A stretch of 64,000 nt of DNA, taken from Candidatus Krumholzibacteriota bacterium. GTDB lineage: Bacteria > Krumholzibacteriota > Krumholzibacteriia > LZORAL124-64-63. Positions 5,801 to 37,333 of this stretch are shown here, piece by piece. Within the stretch, counting starts at the first letter, position 1, and the number at the start of each line of letters is the position of its first letter. The DNA lies in contig JAJRZA010000036.1 of assembly GCA_024275485.1 (NCBI GenBank), forward strand, positions 62,001-126,000. Direction: 5' to 3'. Made by a program: the position numbers and the translations under genes. Below the pieces are notes generated by a model, which worked only from the letters and a program-made list of their open reading frames with translations, had not been told where the DNA came from and did not search any database.

Positions 5801-7432
5801 AGTCTCGGCAAAGCACTCTCCAGAGTAGTTGTATTTGCCGGTCAAGCAGTTGATGGAGAAGACAAAAGTAAGGTCCTCATTATTCAGTCCGGTAAGATCG
5901 TTGCTTTGATAATCCGGTTCACCCCAACCGGTTTCCCCGCCATGATCGCGATGCTGGACCAGGAAGGTGCCGGCGTTGATGTCGGCGTTGATGCGGGTGG
6001 CATTGCCTCCCCAATCCGTCAGATGACTAGGTGTGGCGGGCAAATAGCCCAAACCGTCAGGACCAAAGTAGCTAAGCACTGTGGCTGTATTGGTGGCCGT
6101 GGACCAGACAGTGGGGCTACCGCTGTAAATGGCGTACTCACGAGTCGGAACCTTTCCCAATTCGTTGGCCATGAAACCGTAGATGACCTCGTCGCACAGA
6201 ATAAACCAGCGCTCGGTTTGCCAGCCACCGGCGATGACCGGTTGGGAGTAGAAGTCGGGATTGGTGGGAGGGTTCATCTCGTAGTCGAGTACCTTGCGTA
6301 CGTAGGTTTCCAGGTTGGTGGGGTTGTCGGCCGTCATGCGGGCCAGAATAACGTCGGACATGTGGTTGCCGCTGACATCGGCGTAAATATTGTCCGATAC
6401 ACAGTAACCATCATAAATGGGAGCGATTACATCGGTGGCATCGGTGCCGTGATCACCCAGCAGCAGGATGGCCACCGGCGGCACATCCCAGCTGGCCATG
6501 GCGTTGTCGATAAAACCTTCAATGGCCGCCACAGTGTTGCCGCCAACATCCGGGGTGGTGAACACACCGGTGCGAATACCCTGCTCCGTACGGAAGCGCT
6601 TCAGACTGTCGGCCCAGGCCATGTAACTGGGCAGGGGCGGACAGATGATGACATATTCGAAGTCGGGAGTGCGGTCCCCGGCCTTGATCCCGCGCTCAGC
6701 CGGATCCTGCAACTCGGGCAGGGATGAGGCGTTCAGGAAAATGTCTTTCAGGATGGGATCAAACCACCTGCTGCGCAGACGATCCTCACCAAACTGTCCG
6801 TTGCCGCCGTTGAAGGTAATCTCCAAACGAATGTCACGGAAAACGACCAGCTCCTGGCGCACGGGATTGTACTGGAACGGCGTGATCCCCAGCATGGCCG
6901 TTTCAACCCCGCGGACGGCTGCAATCCCGCCAACTAGCAATGGGTCGTGGGGGTAGTAGGAATCCTTGGCGAAAATTTCATTGTTGCGGGTGTAGACCAG
7001 GGGACTGTCATCCGTATCGAGAGGAATGACCGGGGCCGGTGCCATTTCCACACCATAAAAGGTTTCGCGGCGGGAATCGATCATGCGCACGGTGGCGGTA
7101 GCACCGTTGGGCAGTGCAATGAAATGGCTGATGCCTGGCAAATCAGGAGCACCGGCGTCGTTGGGCAGAAAAACTCCGGGCATCCGGATGACATTGGCGC
7201 TGCGACCGTTGACATCCATGGTGCCGATGGTCCATTGGTGGAGTGAAAAATTCAGCTCCAGTTTGTCGCCGGCCGGACGAGTCATGGTCAGGCCTTCGGG
7301 GCCCCAGCTGTCGTCATAATTGTGGGTTTGGGCGTCGGCAATGGCAAAAACACTGGCTGCGCTCAAGACCATTAGTCCCAAAACTAGCAATCCAACGGTT
7401 CCGGATGAAATGCTCAGACATAACTTGGACAT
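2855..7432 (-). CDS. Gingipain-family (peptidase C25) secreted protease with FlgD-like C-terminal module
   Basis: Very large secreted cysteine protease (1525 residues). ATG 7432 has GGGGGGAA upstream and begins a signal peptide (MSKLCLSISSG... LSAASVFA). The catalytic region spans about residues 270-640. 'HRDHGGETGWGEP' near residue 497 supplies the His and 'FSINCLTGKY' near residue 528 supplies the Cys of the C25 dyad. Several beta-sandwich or CARDB-like repeats and a jelly-roll-like segment (SFYAYSWEMGG) follow. The last 85 residues are the 'YPNPFNPATTIKY... SGAYYYRLQADG' module of FCB surface proteins, likely used for export and anchoring. Upstream in-frame codons to 7594 look non-coding. 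It probably degrades external protein at the cell surface. Confidence 0.88.
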   Translation of the reverse strand: MSKLCLSISSGTVGLLVLGLMVLSAASVFAIADAQTHNYDDSWGPEGLTMTRPAGDKLELNFSLHQWTIGTMDVNGRSANVIRMPGVFLPNDAGAPDLPGISHFIALPNGATATVRMIDSRRETFYGVEMAPAPVIPLDTDDSPLVYTRNNEIFAKDSYYPHDPLLVGGIAAVRGVETAMLGITPFQYNPVRQELVVFRDIRLEITFNGGNGQFGEDRLRSRWFDPILKDIFLNASSLPELQDPAERGIKAGDRTPDFEYVIICPPLPSYMAWADSLKRFRTEQGIRTGVFTTPDVGGNTVAAIEGFIDNAMASWDVPPVAILLLGDHGTDATDVIAPIYDGYCVSDNIYADVSGNHMSDVILARMTADNPTNLETYVRKVLDYEMNPPTNPDFYSQPVIAGGWQTERWFILCDEVIYGFMANELGKVPTREYAIYSGSPTVWSTATNTATVLSYFGPDGLGYLPATPSHLTDWGGNATRINADINAGTFLVQHRDHGGETGWGEPDYQSNDLTGLNNEDLTFVFSINCLTGKYNYSGECFAETFHRHAQGALGLIAASEVSYSFVNDTYVWGMFDYLWPDFDPGHGISGDPKFLPAFANASGKYFLQASSWPYNTDNKEVTYYLFHHHGDAFSNIFTEVPANLTLAHEASLISGVDFFNVTVDAGALIGLSVGGELIGSAVSTGGETTISIPDQLPGQDLIVTVTKQNFYRERRVVPIIPPEGSFVIFDDVVINDASGNNDGNLDFTEDVTLSVNLHNVGLEPAVGVTAVISSEDSYITILDDTEAYGDIAADGFLTVDDGFRVVLDAAVPDGRVISFTLVATDADSFYTSGFALTAHAPVLEIDGYTITGDQDNDGILDPGESAVLNVTLANQGTSTVRNIAVELTSLNPNVVLGDEHPFIPMLAPNGSRSVSWTVAANAETPVGELAEFDLVANGDDYDFLGQFGMSIGLSIEDFETGSFYAYSWEMGGQSDWLTTDIAPYEGTYCAQSGSISHNQSSDLSIEVEVLAPGTITFMAKVSSESGWDFLRFAIDDNELASWSGTLDWTEVSFPVDAGTHVFKWSYTKDVSVDSGSDCGWVDYIVFPSIGEPLRPTCEITPGSLSVSLNKPDTTMRLLTMTNTGEGELVYEASVFLGDRRQTEVPEGKFKKGEVDTRTAAPIERGSGGPDAFGYTWIDSDEPGGPVYQWVEINGVGTVAGGGDDTNLGPFAMGFDFPYYGATFNSVRICTNGWLSFTSLSTAYTNQGIPNSSEPNNLLAALWDDLNPSNGGTIYFYDDLNNNRFIVEYEGVPHYSGGGPETLQVILNANGTIVYQYKVLDTGTGCTVGTENATGTDGLQINFNADYLHSEMAILISAEPLPEPWLSVSPRQGAVGPMSSGDLEVTFNTVDTEAGEYLGMVSVQTNDLENPVIEIPVSLTVTDGLSGVGDGGLPTSFALESAYPNPFNPATTIKYATPRTGLVSLKIYDLAGRHVRTLVDDQKTAGFHSILWDGTDQKGRGVASGAYYYRLQADGFEETQKMLLVK

Positions 7433-29343: not shown

Positions 29344-29372
29344 TTGAACGAAACCCCGATTTCCTTTATAAT
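29344..29372 (+). promoter_or_regulatory. Sigma-70 promoter of the subtilase gene
   Basis: TTGAAC (29344-29349) and a perfect TATAAT (29367-29372) are 17 bases apart. The predicted transcript starts near 29379, giving a 5' leader of about 178 bases that contains a short tandem repeat. Confidence 0.75.
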
Positions 29373-29416
29373 TCATTTTGAAACAAGAGCTAACAGTTTT
29401 TTGCCCCGTCCATTTC

Positions 29417-29446
29417 CCGTTCGGAACCGTTCGGAATCGTTCGGGT
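29417..29446 (+). repeat. Three tandem 10-bp repeats in the subtilase leader
   Basis: Units CCGTTCGGAA, CCGTTCGGAA and TCGTTCGGGT lie head to tail, 140 to 111 bases before the start codon. The 10-bp period would place each unit on the same face of the helix, as expected for a protein-binding array, but they lie downstream of the predicted transcription start. Confidence 0.6.
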
Positions 29447-29556
29447 TATCCCCGGCGGTTAGTTTATCTCGTTGCGCGATGGTTTTCAGGTTCGCCCCTC
29501 AGGCCCCTCAGGCACCTCCGCCCCGAGACCCCGTTCACTCCTTGAGAGGATTATTC

Positions 29557-32500
29557 ATGAAGAAGTTTGCCTTTATCGCCCTGCTGACTGTGATGCTTTG
29601 TGCAAGCATTGCCAGCGCCCAGCCCTATGAAAACCCCTCAGTCGTGGGCCAGGTCCAGGATCGGGTTGTTATTACAGTCAAAGCCGGGACCAAAATGGCC
29701 CTCGACAAGGCCGATGGCACCGTGCGGGTTGGCGTGCCCAGCCTCGACGCCCTGAGCGAACGCTTTTCCGTCACCGGTATGGAGCATATGTACGGAGGTA
29801 TGACTGGAAACCTGAAATCCAAAGCCGACCGCGATATCCTGGACCGCGTCTGGGCCGTGGACTTTCCCGAAGAGATGGGATTGAAAACTGTGCAGGCAGC
29901 GTATGCCGCCCTCCCCGAAGTGGAGGAAGTTCTCCTGGTGGACATCTGCAAAATGTACGATGCCTACCTGCCCGATGATATTTCCCCCAACCAGTACTAT
30001 CTGCGCAACCTGAACGTGGGCGGGCCTGATATTCATGCCGTGGGCGCCTGGAACCAGACCCTTGGTGATTCCAACATCATCGTGGCGGTTATCGATTCGG
30101 GTGTCGACTGGCATCACCCCGATCTCGGCGGCACCCATCCTGACAAAGTCAACGGAGCCATCTGGACCAACTGGGCCGAATACTATGGAACCGACAATGT
30201 CGATGATGACGGCAACGGCAAAGTCGATGATATCCGCGGCTGGGATTTTGTAAATCTGCCCGCCAGTTCGGGATGGCCTGATGAAGATGTTGTCGGCCAG
30301 GACAACGATCCCATGGATTACGAAAGCCACGGCACCAGCTGCGCCGGTTGTGTGGCGGCCATCACCAACAACGGCATCGGCATCGCCGGTACCGCCCCCG
30401 GTTGCAAAATCATGGCCTTGCGCGTGGGCTGGTTGCCCAATGGCGAAACCGGCGGCGTTGTTCGCATGGACTTTGCCTCCCAGGGAATCCTTTACGCCGC
30501 CAACAACGGAGCCAAGATCATCAACTCCAGTTGGGGATCCAGCAGCTTTCTGAGCCTTGCGGTAACTGCGGCTCAAAATGCAGGTGTGCTTATCGTCACC
30601 GCTGCCGGCAACGATGACAACACTGTTGCTTCCTACCTCTCCTCCCGCTCCGGCGTAATTGCCGCCGCCGCCACCAATCAGGATGACCTGAAGGCTTCCT
30701 TCTCAAGCTATGGCAGCTGGGTGGAAATTTCGGCTCCCGGCGTGGGGATTTTCACGACCAGCTACAACCGGTTTGATCAATCCCACGGGTATTCTGCGGT
30801 GAGTGGAACCAGTTTTTCATCACCCATCACCTGCGGTGCCGCGGCGCTGTTGTGGTCCGCAAACCCCGGCATGGGTTACCAGCAGATCACCAGCCTTTTG
30901 CTCAACAGCGCCGACAACATTGACGACCTGAACCCCGCCTACACCGGCATGCTCGGTGCAGGACGGGTCAACATGTTGCGAGCTCTTGGTGACACTGAGC
31001 ATCGTTATCCAGCCGAATTCCCCACCATGTTCGATGCCATCAATTCTGCTGCCGATGGAGACATCATCGCTGTTGAGGGTGGCATTATCATTACCGGGCC
31101 CTTGACGGTGGTTGGCAAAAATTATGAAATTCTGGGTGGCTACAGCTCGGATTACACCAGCCGTGACCCTTTGGGCAATCCCGCTATTATCCAGGGAACT
31201 CTCGTCAATACGGTGCTCAAATTCTCCGGAACGGTTGAGAATACCACCGTGATTGATGGATTCCTTGTCCAGGGTGGTGGAGGATTGGACTTCTCCGGCA
31301 TCCCCTATTCCGGACGTTACGGCGGTGGTATTCAGTTGCAGAACGCTTCACCAACCCTTCGTAACTTCCAGATCACCGGCAACTCTGTCGGCTCCGAATT
31401 TCAGCTGGGACTCGGTGGCGGAATCATGATCAATGGTTCCCACCCTGTGCTGGAAAACGTGCATGTTTACGGAAACACCGGTATTTATGGCGCCGGCATC
31501 TTCATCAACAACAGCACCGTTACCCTGACTGATTGCGTGATTGAGGACAATACAATCATGACCGACAACCTGTCCAGTGCCCCTCTAGGTGGCGGTTTGC
31601 ACATGGTGAACTCCACTGTAAGCATGACCAATTGCACCGTCAGTGGCCATACCGACTGCCAGGATGGTGGCGGCATCTATTCCAGTGACGGCAACGCCCT
31701 GACCATGGTTGGCGGTTCGGTGAGCAACAACAGTGCGTTGAACAGCGGAGGTGGCTTGTACCACTCCGACGGTAGTCTTGACCTGACCGGAACCCTGATC
31801 TCCGGCAACAGCAGCCTGCCCGCCAGCTCCTTCATGAATGGTGGTGGTATCTACGCCATCGCCGCCAACGTGAGTCTCGACGGCGTGACCGTCTCGGGCA
31901 ACACTTCCCACGCCGGTGGTGGTGCCGTCTTCAACACCTGTACCCTTGCCGACGTGAACAATTCGGTCTTTTCCGGCAACACAGGGCATTTCTTTGGTGG
32001 GGGCATGTTCTACCAGAACACCACCGCAGGAACCGTGGCCAACAATACAATTGTTGAGAATGACGCCACCTTCAGCGGTGGTGGCGGTTTGTATGTCCAG
32101 GGCAATGTGCCGGAAATCAGCAACAACATCATCGCCTTCAACACCGGGGCAGCAGGCTTTGCCAATGGAGTAGCCGTTCCCGCGGAACCTGCGGTTTTCA
32201 GTTGCAACGATGTTTTCGGCAACGCCATCGCCGACTATTCCGGCATGGCCGATCCCACCGGGACCAACGGGAACATCATGGCCGACCCCCTGTTCTGCGA
32301 CCAGGCCCAAGGCAACTACAATGTCACTTCCGCCTCTCCCTGTGACCAGGACAACAGTGGTGGTTGTGGACTCATTGGCGCCCTCGGCGCCGGTTGCGGG
32401 TTGAGCCCCGTGCCGGACCCGGACAACGGAACCCCCATCGTCTTCCAGGTGGACCAGAACTTCCCCAACCCGTTCAACCCTTCGACCACCATTCGCTTTG

Positions 32501-32715
32501 CCCTGCCTGTCAGCGCCCAGACCCGGGTGGTCATTTTTGACGTGGCCGGCCACAAGGTCAAAACCCTGGTGGACGACGTGATGGCCGCCCAGGTTCACGA
32601 GGTGCAGTGGACTGGTCGGGATGATGCCGGACGAAGTGTTTCGGCGGGTGTGTACTTCTACCGGGTTAGCTCTGGAGAACACTTCTCGGTGGGACGGATG
32701 GCTTTGGTTAAGTAG
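29557..32715 (+). CDS. Subtilisin-family (S8) secreted protease with beta-helix and FlgD-like C-terminal module
   Basis: 1052-residue secreted serine protease. ATG 29557 with GAGAGGA upstream starts a signal peptide (MKKFAFIALLTVMLCASIASA). A propeptide-like region (30-150) precedes the S8 domain: Asp in 'VAVIDSGVDWHHPDLGG' (near 180), His in 'ESHGTSCAGCVAA' (near 258), Ser in 'SGTSFSSPITCGAAALLW' (near 418). Residues about 500-950 are right-handed beta-helix repeats with recurrent 'GG.....G......V..N...G.GGG' (for example VSNNSALNSGGGLYHSDGS). The end is 'FPNPFNPSTTIRFALP... SAGVYFYRV', the sorting/anchoring module shared with the C25 protease. All three catalytic residues are present. The own promoter and terminator make it monocistronic. 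Confidence 0.9.
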   Translation: MKKFAFIALLTVMLCASIASAQPYENPSVVGQVQDRVVITVKAGTKMALDKADGTVRVGVPSLDALSERFSVTGMEHMYGGMTGNLKSKADRDILDRVWAVDFPEEMGLKTVQAAYAALPEVEEVLLVDICKMYDAYLPDDISPNQYYLRNLNVGGPDIHAVGAWNQTLGDSNIIVAVIDSGVDWHHPDLGGTHPDKVNGAIWTNWAEYYGTDNVDDDGNGKVDDIRGWDFVNLPASSGWPDEDVVGQDNDPMDYESHGTSCAGCVAAITNNGIGIAGTAPGCKIMALRVGWLPNGETGGVVRMDFASQGILYAANNGAKIINSSWGSSSFLSLAVTAAQNAGVLIVTAAGNDDNTVASYLSSRSGVIAAAATNQDDLKASFSSYGSWVEISAPGVGIFTTSYNRFDQSHGYSAVSGTSFSSPITCGAAALLWSANPGMGYQQITSLLLNSADNIDDLNPAYTGMLGAGRVNMLRALGDTEHRYPAEFPTMFDAINSAADGDIIAVEGGIIITGPLTVVGKNYEILGGYSSDYTSRDPLGNPAIIQGTLVNTVLKFSGTVENTTVIDGFLVQGGGGLDFSGIPYSGRYGGGIQLQNASPTLRNFQITGNSVGSEFQLGLGGGIMINGSHPVLENVHVYGNTGIYGAGIFINNSTVTLTDCVIEDNTIMTDNLSSAPLGGGLHMVNSTVSMTNCTVSGHTDCQDGGGIYSSDGNALTMVGGSVSNNSALNSGGGLYHSDGSLDLTGTLISGNSSLPASSFMNGGGIYAIAANVSLDGVTVSGNTSHAGGGAVFNTCTLADVNNSVFSGNTGHFFGGGMFYQNTTAGTVANNTIVENDATFSGGGGLYVQGNVPEISNNIIAFNTGAAGFANGVAVPAEPAVFSCNDVFGNAIADYSGMADPTGTNGNIMADPLFCDQAQGNYNVTSASPCDQDNSGGCGLIGALGAGCGLSPVPDPDNGTPIVFQVDQNFPNPFNPSTTIRFALPVSAQTRVVIFDVAGHKVKTLVDDVMAAQVHEVQWTGRDDAGRSVSAGVYFYRVSSGEHFSVGRMALVK

Positions 32716-33992: not shown

Positions 33993-34610
33993 CTACCGCA
34001 AAAAAGCCACTCCAGCCGTCAAGATCAACAACAGCCCCATGGACCTCATTATCCACTGAATATGTTTATGGGAAATCCTCAGCCGAAAAATATCCAACAA
34101 CTTCAGAAGTAGTCCAAACCATCCGATAATTCCCAAGGCCACCCCAACAATAAAAACCACCGGCGAAGCCGATTCGGGATGAAAACCAAACCCAACCGCC
34201 ACGGTCAACAACGCCAACCAATTCAACGGAACCGAAATATTCCCTCCCACCAGCGAGAACCCCATCCAGAATTCCCTGGAATAATTTTCCTCCATGGACA
34301 ATTTCTCATTCCGCGAAGGAACCGAAGATTCCCTCGTCAAAAAGAAGATCCCCAAGCCCACCAGAATAAGCGCACCCACCACCTTGGCAATACCTTCGGC
34401 GGCTGGCCAGCGCTCCATGATTTGTTCGGCTCCCACCAGTGCAAGCAAACACCAGGCGGCTTCGGCCACCGCAGCACCCAACGAAAGGGACATACCGGCT
34501 TTCAGGCGACCGGCCAAACCCCGCTGAAAAACAAAAATGGAAACGGCGCCGGCGATGGGCATGGATCCCAACCAGCCAAGAACGAAACCTGCTGCCAGAT
34601 GGGTGATCAT
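33993..34610 (-). CDS. LysE/RhtB-superfamily exporter
   Basis: 205-residue inner-membrane protein with six predicted helices. The N-terminus 'AAGFVLGWLGSMPIAGAVSIFVFQRGL' matches the LysE family pattern (helix 1, Gly-Pro-rich loop, helix 2), with 'KAGMSLSLGAAVAEAAWCLLALVG' next. LysE-type carriers expel amino acids or related small molecules. Its start overlaps the stop of the cytidylyltransferase gene (ATGA), making it the last gene of the head-group cluster. It may export a product or precursor of that pathway, or flip a lipid precursor (inference). Confidence 0.8.
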   Translation of the reverse strand: MITHLAAGFVLGWLGSMPIAGAVSIFVFQRGLAGRLKAGMSLSLGAAVAEAAWCLLALVGAEQIMERWPAAEGIAKVVGALILVGLGIFFLTRESSVPSRNEKLSMEENYSREFWMGFSLVGGNISVPLNWLALLTVAVGFGFHPESASPVVFIVGVALGIIGWFGLLLKLLDIFRLRISHKHIQWIMRSMGLLLILTAGVAFLR

Positions 34611-35332
34611 AAGTTCTTGAAGGCTTCGCGGGCGGAGTCCAGGTCTTCAGGAGTATCGATTTCCATGCACAGGATATCGCCAAGATCCACCGGCATGACC
34701 TTGTGTCCGGACTGCATCAACTCCACAAAGGAAGCTTCGTAATATTCGTTTACGTAGCCATCGGTTTTCATGCGGCGGGTCAGGACTTCCATCAGGGCCG
34801 TCACGAATTCACCTGAAAAAACTTCCAGGCCCACCGACTCTCCGGCGGATTCACTGACGGGCATTTCCTTAGTGAGGTTGACCACCCTGCCATCTTCGCC
34901 CAAAGATACCTTCATCTCCTCCTGACCCACGCTGCCGGAGGTGCGCAAACCCAGGCGGTTGGGAGCATCGTCGGCCAGAAGCCGATCGATGACAGAGGGC
35001 TCAAAGAGAATATCGCTGTCCATCAGGAAAATGGGTTCTCCCGCATTGCAATCGGCCAGCATCAGCGACCAGGCGTTGTTGGTGGTTTGGAAATCATCAT
35101 TGCGAATGAATCGAAATTCGAAATCCGGAAAGGTGGAACCCAGGGTTTGGCGAATCATGTCTCCGCAAAATCCATCCACCACCGTGAACCGACGGATGCC
35201 ACGCTCACCGAGGATGCGCACCGCCCTTTCGAGGATGCTTTCTTCTCCCACAGACAGCAGGCATTTGGGGCAATTGTCAGTCAGAGGGCGTAGCCGGGTT
35301 GCCTGACCCGCCGCAAGCAGAATAGCTCTCAT
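34607..35332 (-). CDS. LicC/PntC-like NTP transferase (phosphocholine- or phosphoalcohol-cytidylyltransferase family)
   Basis: 241-residue nucleotidyltransferase. 'MRAILLAAGQATRLRPLTDN' followed by CPKCLLSVG is the universal signature of sugar/alcohol-phosphate nucleotidyltransferases and fixes the start at ATG 35332. 'TTNNAWSLMLA' and 'PIFLMDSDILFEPSVIDRLL' (metal-binding DSD) and the end 'DLGDILCMEIDTPEDLDSA' match the LicC/PntC/inositol-1-phosphate cytidylyltransferase branch, which makes CDP-choline-like donors. The neighbouring CDP-alcohol phosphotransferase would use such a donor. The N-terminus overlaps the end of that gene by 56 bases in another frame. Confidence 0.85.
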   Translation of the reverse strand: MRAILLAAGQATRLRPLTDNCPKCLLSVGEESILERAVRILGERGIRRFTVVDGFCGDMIRQTLGSTFPDFEFRFIRNDDFQTTNNAWSLMLADCNAGEPIFLMDSDILFEPSVIDRLLADDAPNRLGLRTSGSVGQEEMKVSLGEDGRVVNLTKEMPVSESAGESVGLEVFSGEFVTALMEVLTRRMKTDGYVNEYYEASFVELMQSGHKVMPVDLGDILCMEIDTPEDLDSAREAFKNL

Positions 35333-36239
35333 GGGTAGTGACTCCATCGATATTGTGCTTTGCCTTTTCAACACGCAGCAACAGCTCGGCGCGGTATTTC
35401 AGGGCCAAGACCAGCAGCCCCCACAAGGTGCCAAAAACCAGGGCGAACCATACGTACCACAGCAATCGGTTGGTAACTCCGGCCACCATGATCAGAAACA
35501 GATGCATGGATGGCCCCATAAAAATGGCCATGCGAGTGATGGGACGGCGCAATTCGATCCATTTATCAAGAAGCGGCCCATGACACTCGACAGCCTTGCG
35601 GTGCACGGCTCCGGTGTACCACAACGAAACATAGAAGGTGTAAAAAGCGATCAGCATTCGCTGACCGGGATGGCTGCCTTCGGTTTTCCATGTGGCGGCG
35701 ATATCCCTCAGCTCGCGCACCTCTGCTTCGGGCTCAGTGCGGTTATTGTAGACCTTGTCCTGCCACTGGTTGCGGAAGCGGTCCACCATGGCGCACCACC
35801 ACGCAAAACTGAGGCCTGCGGGTACTCCAATACCCCAGATGAAACCGGGATTGCCTGTTTGCACCGAGAGGCCATGCAAAATGCTGACAAAAACCACCAC
35901 GTGGGTGATGTAATCCACCATACCGTCGAGAATGTAGCCGATGACCGAACTGGTTCCGAGCGCCCTGGCCAGCATTCCATCGGCGCAGTCGAAAACGTTG
36001 GTCCAGAAGAGGATGATAGCGCCGGCCATAACCCAATTCGCCGAACCCTGCCAGAAACAGAAACCGGAAATGAGGCCCAGAACGAGACTGAACAAGGTGA
36101 TCTGGTTGGGAGAAATGGTAGTGGGCTGAAAAATTTTAACCAATACAAAAGCAAAAGGACGGAACAGAATCAGGTCAAGACCTTCTTCCAGTTCCGTCGC
36201 CTTGAGCATGCTCCGGTATTGCTTGAAATAATTGGCCAC
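35277..36239 (-). CDS. CDP-alcohol phosphatidyltransferase family membrane enzyme
   Basis: 320-residue membrane enzyme that transfers a phosphoalcohol from a CDP-alcohol, or phosphatidyl from CDP-diacylglycerol. The full family motif is present: 'DCADGMLARALGTSSVIGYI' then LDGMVD (D-G-x2-A-R-x8-G-x3-D-x3-D). About six helices surround it, with a soluble insertion rich in Arg/Glu (residues 160-205). The start is GTG 36239, 8 bases after the aminotransferase stop. The last 18 residues overlap the conserved beginning of the downstream gene and look unconstrained, so the functional protein probably ends near 'VEKAKHNIDGV'. With the cytidylyltransferase and aminotransferase it suggests synthesis of an amino-alcohol or inositol-type head group. 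Confidence 0.87.
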   Translation of the reverse strand: MANYFKQYRSMLKATELEEGLDLILFRPFAFVLVKIFQPTTISPNQITLFSLVLGLISGFCFWQGSANWVMAGAIILFWTNVFDCADGMLARALGTSSVIGYILDGMVDYITHVVVFVSILHGLSVQTGNPGFIWGIGVPAGLSFAWWCAMVDRFRNQWQDKVYNNRTEPEAEVRELRDIAATWKTEGSHPGQRMLIAFYTFYVSLWYTGAVHRKAVECHGPLLDKWIELRRPITRMAIFMGPSMHLFLIMVAGVTNRLLWYVWFALVFGTLWGLLVLALKYRAELLLRVEKAKHNIDGVTTHESYSACGGSGNPATPSD

Positions 36240-36247
36240 TGTTTCGA

Positions 36248-37333
36248 TTAGGCGACCTCTCCGCCTGAAGCGGATTGCTGACGTTTTTCAGGCCAGGCAT
36301 CTTTCACTGCAGCCAGCAGCCAGGCGTTCTCTTGGTCGGTGCCCAGGCTGATACGGGCATAGCCCAGAAAACACTCTTCCTTGAAGAATTTGATGATCAA
36401 ACCCTGACTGTCCAAAGCTTCCTTCATTATGGGCACAACCCAATCGGGGAACTTCACCAAAATGAAGTTGGCCTCCGATTCAAAAGCCAGGCACCCCAGA
36501 TCACGGAAGACATGGTACATTTCCTGACGATCGGCAGCCATGCGCGAGGCTATGTCGGCGTAATATTCGGGACTATCCAGGGCAGCCAGGGCCAAGCGCT
36601 CACTGATGCGATTATAACCCAGGTTGCGGGCACAGAATTTTTGGAACCCGCCGAGACCTTCACCAATAACGCCATAACCCATGCGCACACCGGCCATGGC
36701 GTACAGCTTGCTGAAGGTGCGCAGGAAAATCAGGTTTGGGTACTGGTCGGTCAGTCCACCAAAATCGTCTTCCTCACTTGGATTGTGACCAAAATAAGCC
36801 TGGTCCAACATCACCGGAGTATCGCGATATGCTTCCAGAACCCGCAGTAAATCTTTGCGCGAGAGCACGTTGCCGGTGGGGTTGTTCGGTGAGGCGATCA
36901 AAACGATGCCCGGGTTGTGCTCTTCCTTCAGGTTGATCAGGGCTTCAACGTCGAATTCGAAGCGCTCGGGAGTTTCCACCAAGGGGAACTGAACGGTGAC
37001 GCCTCCCACCTCATCGGCGATGGCGGTGTAATACCACCAGCTGGCCGAGGGGATCAGGATGGTGCGACCCTTCTTGAGGAAGTAGTGCACAGCTCCCTTG
37101 AGGATGTCTTCGCAGCCGTAGCCCAGAATAACCCGTTTTTCTTCAACATTGTGCAGTTCGGCCAGGCGCACCGAAAGGTCGCTGTAATTACCCTGCTGGA
37201 ATGCACGCGTGTAGTTGAACAGCAGTTCCTTGTCGGCATCCCGCAATACCTGCAGGCACGCGGGCGCAGGACCATATCGATTTTCGTTGCGATCAAAAAG
37301 AATTGGTTCCTGATGGCTCACGATTTTCCCCAC
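36248..37333 (-). CDS. HisC-like class I/II aminotransferase (PLP)
   Basis: 361-residue PLP enzyme of the histidinol-phosphate aminotransferase branch. '[19 protein letters not shown]' (substrate loop), '[19 protein letters not shown]', '[14 protein letters not shown]' (Asn contacting PLP), '[10 protein letters not shown]' (Asp-x-Ala-Tyr) and the Schiff-base Lys in '[19 protein letters not shown]' are all present. No other his genes lie nearby. In this setting, leading an operon with a CDP-alcohol phosphotransferase and a cytidylyltransferase, it more likely makes a phosphorylated amino alcohol or aminophosphonate (as in 2-aminoethylphosphonate-type pathways), but a HisC role cannot be excluded. 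GTG 37333 with AAAGG upstream is the start used. Confidence 0.82.

Follow-up and report, generated by a model that had tools for sequence, protein, structure and literature searches.

We identified a conserved four-gene operon in the 64,000-nucleotide stretch of Krumholzibacteriota DNA analysed here (the window) whose products are likely to build an amino-alcohol head group, activate it with CTP and transfer it to a lipid. A self-contained head-group pathway is the best explanation of the whole, and we hold it at an even balance; serinol specifically as the head group is a tentative assignment, a little short of that balance. The genes run leftward on the (-) strand and encode a HisC-like PLP aminotransferase (AT, 36248..37333, 361 aa; Pfam Aminotran_1_2, 3.6e-36), a CDP-alcohol phosphotransferase (CDPOH, 35277..36239, 320 aa; CDP-OH_P_transf, PF01066, 1.6e-12), a LicC/PntC-like cytidylyltransferase (NTP, 34607..35374; NTP_transf_3, 1.5e-08) and a LysE-family membrane protein (33993..34610, 205 aa; LysE, PF01810, 4.9e-17, 62.5 bits). 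Judged by homologues, the likely true start of AT is a GTG at 37321 (VSHQEP...), giving 357 aa, and that of NTP an ATG at 35332 (MRAILLAAG), giving 241 aa. Eight nucleotides separate AT from CDPOH, CDPOH and NTP overlap, and NTP and the LysE gene overlap by 4 nt. The first-pass annotation had described a leftward operon with gaps of 8 nt or less, and an ORF check with Pfam searches bore out all of its ORFs, strands, coordinates and families. The operon is a real, conserved unit, beyond chance, as the gene order recurs in relatives and AT and CDPOH co-occur. At 29344-32715 the window also holds a large subtilisin-like protein which, by eye, carries repeats resembling a right-handed beta helix, ends in a C-terminal FNPSTTI-type tail and is kept near the module within the genus.

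The families, catalytic residues, linkage and co-inheritance of these genes were observed directly; for the substrates, direction, acceptor lipid and role of LysE we infer the following scheme. AT would aminate a ketone that already carries a phosphate; the likeliest such substrate is dihydroxyacetone phosphate (DHAP), which would yield serinol phosphate. NTP would then join serinol phosphate and CTP into a CDP-amino-alcohol (CDP-serinol), from which CDPOH would transfer the phospho-amino-alcohol to a membrane lipid, probably diacylglycerol, to form a phosphatidylserinol-type aminophospholipid. The LysE-family protein may move the product, or a metabolite of the pathway, across the membrane by export or flipping. 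Conservation, co-occurrence and family assignments support the amino-alcohol phosphate, CTP activation and lipid transfer that the first-pass annotation had put forward, and its phosphonate and inositol variants fell away. It had also regarded a phosphonate-forming or kinase step as missing. No kinase or glycosyltransferase gene recurs beside the module in the neighbourhoods of the module loci examined, but the kinase step may not be missing, since an AT acting on an already phosphorylated ketone would need none.

AT resembles HisC in its fold, in its PLP residues and, in the proposed scheme, in transaminating a phosphorylated ketone, which is HisC's own activity. The best PDB matches to its AF2 model (pLDDT 85.4) are all HisC folds, with CobD ranking 45th, and comparison with E. 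coli HisC shows that it keeps the catalytic Lys209 together with Asp177, Tyr180, Asn151, Arg217 and Arg327. It scores 197 bits against the hisC model TIGR01141 and 117 bits against the CobD model TIGR01140, under the curated cutoffs of 276.55 and 290.55, respectively. Distant orthologues are also under the hisC cutoff (200-243 bits) and, taken with AT itself, span 117-146 bits against CobD; across this set the hisC model is ahead by 79-108 bits. Unlike HisC, AT falls below the equivalog cutoff, lacks the N-terminal segment bearing Tyr20, carries a WWYY motif and has Lys315 in place of HisC Arg322, a lysine found in 34/34 orthologues. The Arg322 replacement means that phosphate or carboxylate is recognized differently than in HisC, which counts against the proposed scheme, and the active-site residues alone do not decide between a transaminase and a decarboxylase. 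The first-pass annotation would have been refuted if AT were the only HisC of the genome and the other genes were unlinked in relatives. Neither is the case: the genes are linked in relatives, and a separate true HisC scoring 364 bits (cutoff 276.6) sits on another contig, by which we rejected AT as the cell's HisC.

The solved enzymes closest to NTP are LicC (1jyk) and PntC (6pd1), which are its top PDB matches and equally near. Their shared catalytic motifs are present: the GXG(T/S)RX4-8PK signature is conserved as GQATRLRPLTD..PK, with A replacing the second G as LicC/PntC alignments allow, and the metal-binding acidic residues DxD (DSD) and EID are conserved, as is K155. NTP therefore reads as a LicC/PntC-like cytidylyltransferase with CTP and an amino-alcohol phosphate as its putative substrates. 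It differs from LicC and PntC in its setting: the genome lacks PEP mutase, no lic-type genes adjoin NTP and the partner genes are others. In CDPOH, the residues of the motif D(x)2DG(x)2AR(x)8G(x)3D(x)3D are invariant across 20 orthologues. Its AF2 model (pLDDT 84.9) finds AF2299, a CDP-alcohol phosphotransferase, as the best fold in Foldseek (E 1.3e-06), a match that confirms the family and does not speak to the acceptor. In AF2299 and IPCT-DIPPS a cytidylyltransferase-like domain is attached to the CDP-alcohol phosphotransferase; like the operon, they show the CDPOH fold and couple an activating enzyme to a phosphotransferase. They differ in acting on inositol or an undefined substrate, in having no aminotransferase and in sequence, which is only distantly related (16-18% in the alignment of the folds).

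Within Krumholzibacteriia, the order AT-CDPOH-NTP-LysE is kept in relatives down to about 59, 45, 55 and 40% identity, respectively; the exceptions are one genome with AT on a separate contig (G067) and one in which the contig stops before LysE (G053). Searches with an AT profile and a CDPOH query placed both genes in the identical 13 of 38 family genomes and found both missing from the other 25. The chance of such an identical pattern is 1/C(38,13) = 1.8e-10 only if the genomes are independent, which they are not, and the co-occurrence counts accordingly lack phylogenetic independence. The module is optional and its product not essential, as 25/38 family members live without it. In a genome of the window's own genus (G066), AT (87%) at the old site is directly followed by NTP (78%) and CDPOH is gone; elsewhere, behind a methionyl-tRNA synthetase-like gene, LysE (56%) is paired with a CDPOH that is only 25-26% identical to that of the window and 57% identical to the CDPOH of a Calditrichaceae AT-CDPOH-NTP operon. 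This arrangement suggests a natural replacement, with a CDPOH of foreign origin substituting for the original one and LysE tied to the CDPOH step. In the locus of the LysE-CDPOH pair (L033:6053-10264), genes for a CPBP-like membrane protein, an NAD epimerase and a PAP2_3 protein come next, and similar CDPOH-epimerase neighbours occur in two Neomarinimicrobiota loci (L103 and L108).

Outside the phylum, 26 loci pair AT with CDPOH. These loci belong to Ignavibacteria, Melioribacteraceae, Bacteroidetes, Calditrichaceae, Aminicenantes and BMS3Abin04, a distribution that is a lower bound as the scan of relatives used exact peptides and kept 80 of 146. The orthologues are 40-49% (AT) and 24-36% (CDPOH) identical to the window proteins. 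NTP directly follows AT-CDPOH in 10/26 of these loci, and we tested the prediction that it is present even where it does not. In 13 of the 14 AT-CDPOH genomes without an adjacent copy, a profile search recovered an NTP orthologue at another site with a strong score (311-357 bits), and the 14th has a C-terminal piece of NTP at a contig start. Genomes with a CDPOH relative and no AT gave weaker NTP matches (29-226 bits). The LysE gene adjoins the module in four loci (L084, L087, L094 and L098) and lies immediately downstream of the separate NTP in three Bacteroidota; its matches are strong in Bacteroidota and Melioribacteraceae, while several other carriers give weak ones (about 50-94 bits) or none, which makes it a frequent, not an obligatory, partner.

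Three loci depart from the common layout. A deltaproteobacterial MAG (L118:7830-11917) has a CDPOH relative, then NTP, then a 640-aa fusion of a nucleotidyltransferase and a class I/II aminotransferase, a fused version of two neighbouring pathway steps. One Ignavibacteria locus (L113:7992-11585) reads CDPOH-AT-NTP-CDPOH; the AT-NTP pair lies between two CDPOH copies that differ from each other. In a Bacteroidia locus (L106:8001-9874), what separates CDPOH from LysE is no more than a fragment of NTP, and AT is missing from the surroundings; the module there looks to be decaying.

The neighbourhood of the module in one clade bears on the substrate of AT. In ten Ignavibacteria loci, and in that clade only, AT-CDPOH follows pgk, with gapA also visible upstream in eight; in one of them (L097) the end of pgk at 6799 lies just ahead of the AT start at 6805. 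HisC transaminates an acetol phosphate, and the simplest hydroxy member of that type is DHAP. This activity and the pgk linkage make conversion of DHAP to serinol phosphate our best guess for the AT reaction.

Campylobacter jejuni offers a precedent for either of two AT reactions: Cj1437 forms (S)-serinol phosphate from DHAP, and Cj1436 produces ethanolamine phosphate by decarboxylating phosphoserine (PMC11800397). Likened to AT by reaction and not by sequence, both depend on PLP and need no kinase to turn a central metabolite into a phospho-amino-alcohol. Their product is amide-linked to capsule glucuronate by an ATP-dependent ligase, whereas in the operon the next enzymes are a cytidylyltransferase and a CDP-alcohol phosphotransferase. 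The second reaction provides the main rival to serinol phosphate formation, an unlikely one in our view: AT would be a CobD/Cj1436-like decarboxylase turning O-phospho-L-serine into ethanolamine phosphate, and the operon a CDP-ethanolamine (Kennedy) route to phosphatidylethanolamine (PE) replacing PssA/Psd. The existence of Cj1436, the fold that HisC and CobD have in common and the lack of Psd in Krumholzibacteriia carriers all favour it, and the pgk linkage fits it too, with phosphoserine coming from 3-phosphoglycerate. The margin of the hisC model over CobD and the low rank of CobD among the folds of AT argue against it, as does the distribution of Psd. Psd is missing throughout the Krumholzibacteriia family, from carriers and non-carriers alike (an absence that, like that of PEP mutase, rests on draft MAGs, though holding over many), so there is no swap of routes; it is present in 25/26 carriers from other groups, where a second PE route would be redundant. 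We therefore rejected a simple PssA/Psd replacement.

The same genomes bear on the phospholipids of the family more broadly. The only other PF01066 enzyme of the window's genome (G000:C33:66380-66814; L040:8297-8959) resembles phosphatidylinositol-phosphate synthase (135 bits); it was rejected as PgsA, the pgsA model giving 23 bits. An inositol-1-phosphate synthase is encoded at G000:C28:131460-132680. Since inositol enzymes are present and searches for Psd and for a further PF01066 protein, the two kinds of enzyme covered, found neither, the family may use phosphatidylinositol as its main phospholipid. Inositol does not fit as the head group of the module itself, a variant that the first-pass annotation had included. 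The distribution of inositol-1-phosphate synthase does not track the module: it is present in 11/11 Krumholzibacteriia genomes tested, with or without the module, and missing from two Ignavibacteria-group carriers. We therefore rejected it.

Serinol phosphate formation also has to be weighed against the same scheme run on a larger phosphoketose, for instance a pentulose 5-phosphate, which would yield an aminopolyol head group like that of aminopentanetetrol phospholipids. All other evidence on the module fits this equally, and there are reports of aminopentanetetrol lipids in deeply branching thermophiles, Thermodesulfobacterium and Aquificales among them (PMC5572230). The gapA-pgk linkage favours trioses, however, and no Aquificales or Thermodesulfobacterium orthologue is among the 80 loci kept in the non-exhaustive exact-peptide scan. 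We give the larger ketose a small chance, slightly below that of the ethanolamine route. Smaller again is the chance that the phospho-amino-alcohol goes onto a glycan or a lipid-linked surface polymer, not a bulk phospholipid, with LysE exporting a precursor. The phosphocholine and 2-aminoethylphosphonate cytidylyltransferases LicC and PntC do serve cell-surface decoration (PMC6697681), the Cj1437 product decorates the capsule (PMC11800397), and the association with LysE would suit such a role. Yet no glycosyltransferase or polymer gene was seen travelling with the four genes, and the transferase belongs to a membrane CDP-alcohol phosphotransferase family. A phosphonolipid (2-aminoethylphosphonate) pathway, raised in the first-pass annotation and favoured by the equal closeness of NTP to PntC and LicC, is very improbable, as a model search found PEP mutase in 0/25 module genomes with a model sensitive enough to ring weakly even in control genomes, so that a divergent C-P bond-forming enzyme would be required.

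Each of the three proposed steps, namely amination of a ketone phosphate from glycolysis, activation with CTP and transfer from the CDP-alcohol, has a known precedent. The literature searched gave no head-group pathway that combines them, no serinol-headed phospholipids and no lipid or enzyme data for Krumholzibacteria, Melioribacter or Ignavibacterium. Joined in this order, the three steps could produce a new class of phospholipid, phosphatidylserinol or another aminopolyol lipid, in Krumholzibacteriota, Ignavibacteria, Bacteroidetes, Calditrichaceae and Aminicenantes, with a LysE-family transporter of lipid or head group as a frequent partner; we advance this as a possibility just under the even mark. 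If true, the operon would let an unrecorded aminophospholipid be recognized from its genes in several phyla with few cultured members and would supply a specific mass for environmental lipidomics to seek. It would also explain by what means a family lacking Psd could nevertheless produce an aminophospholipid.
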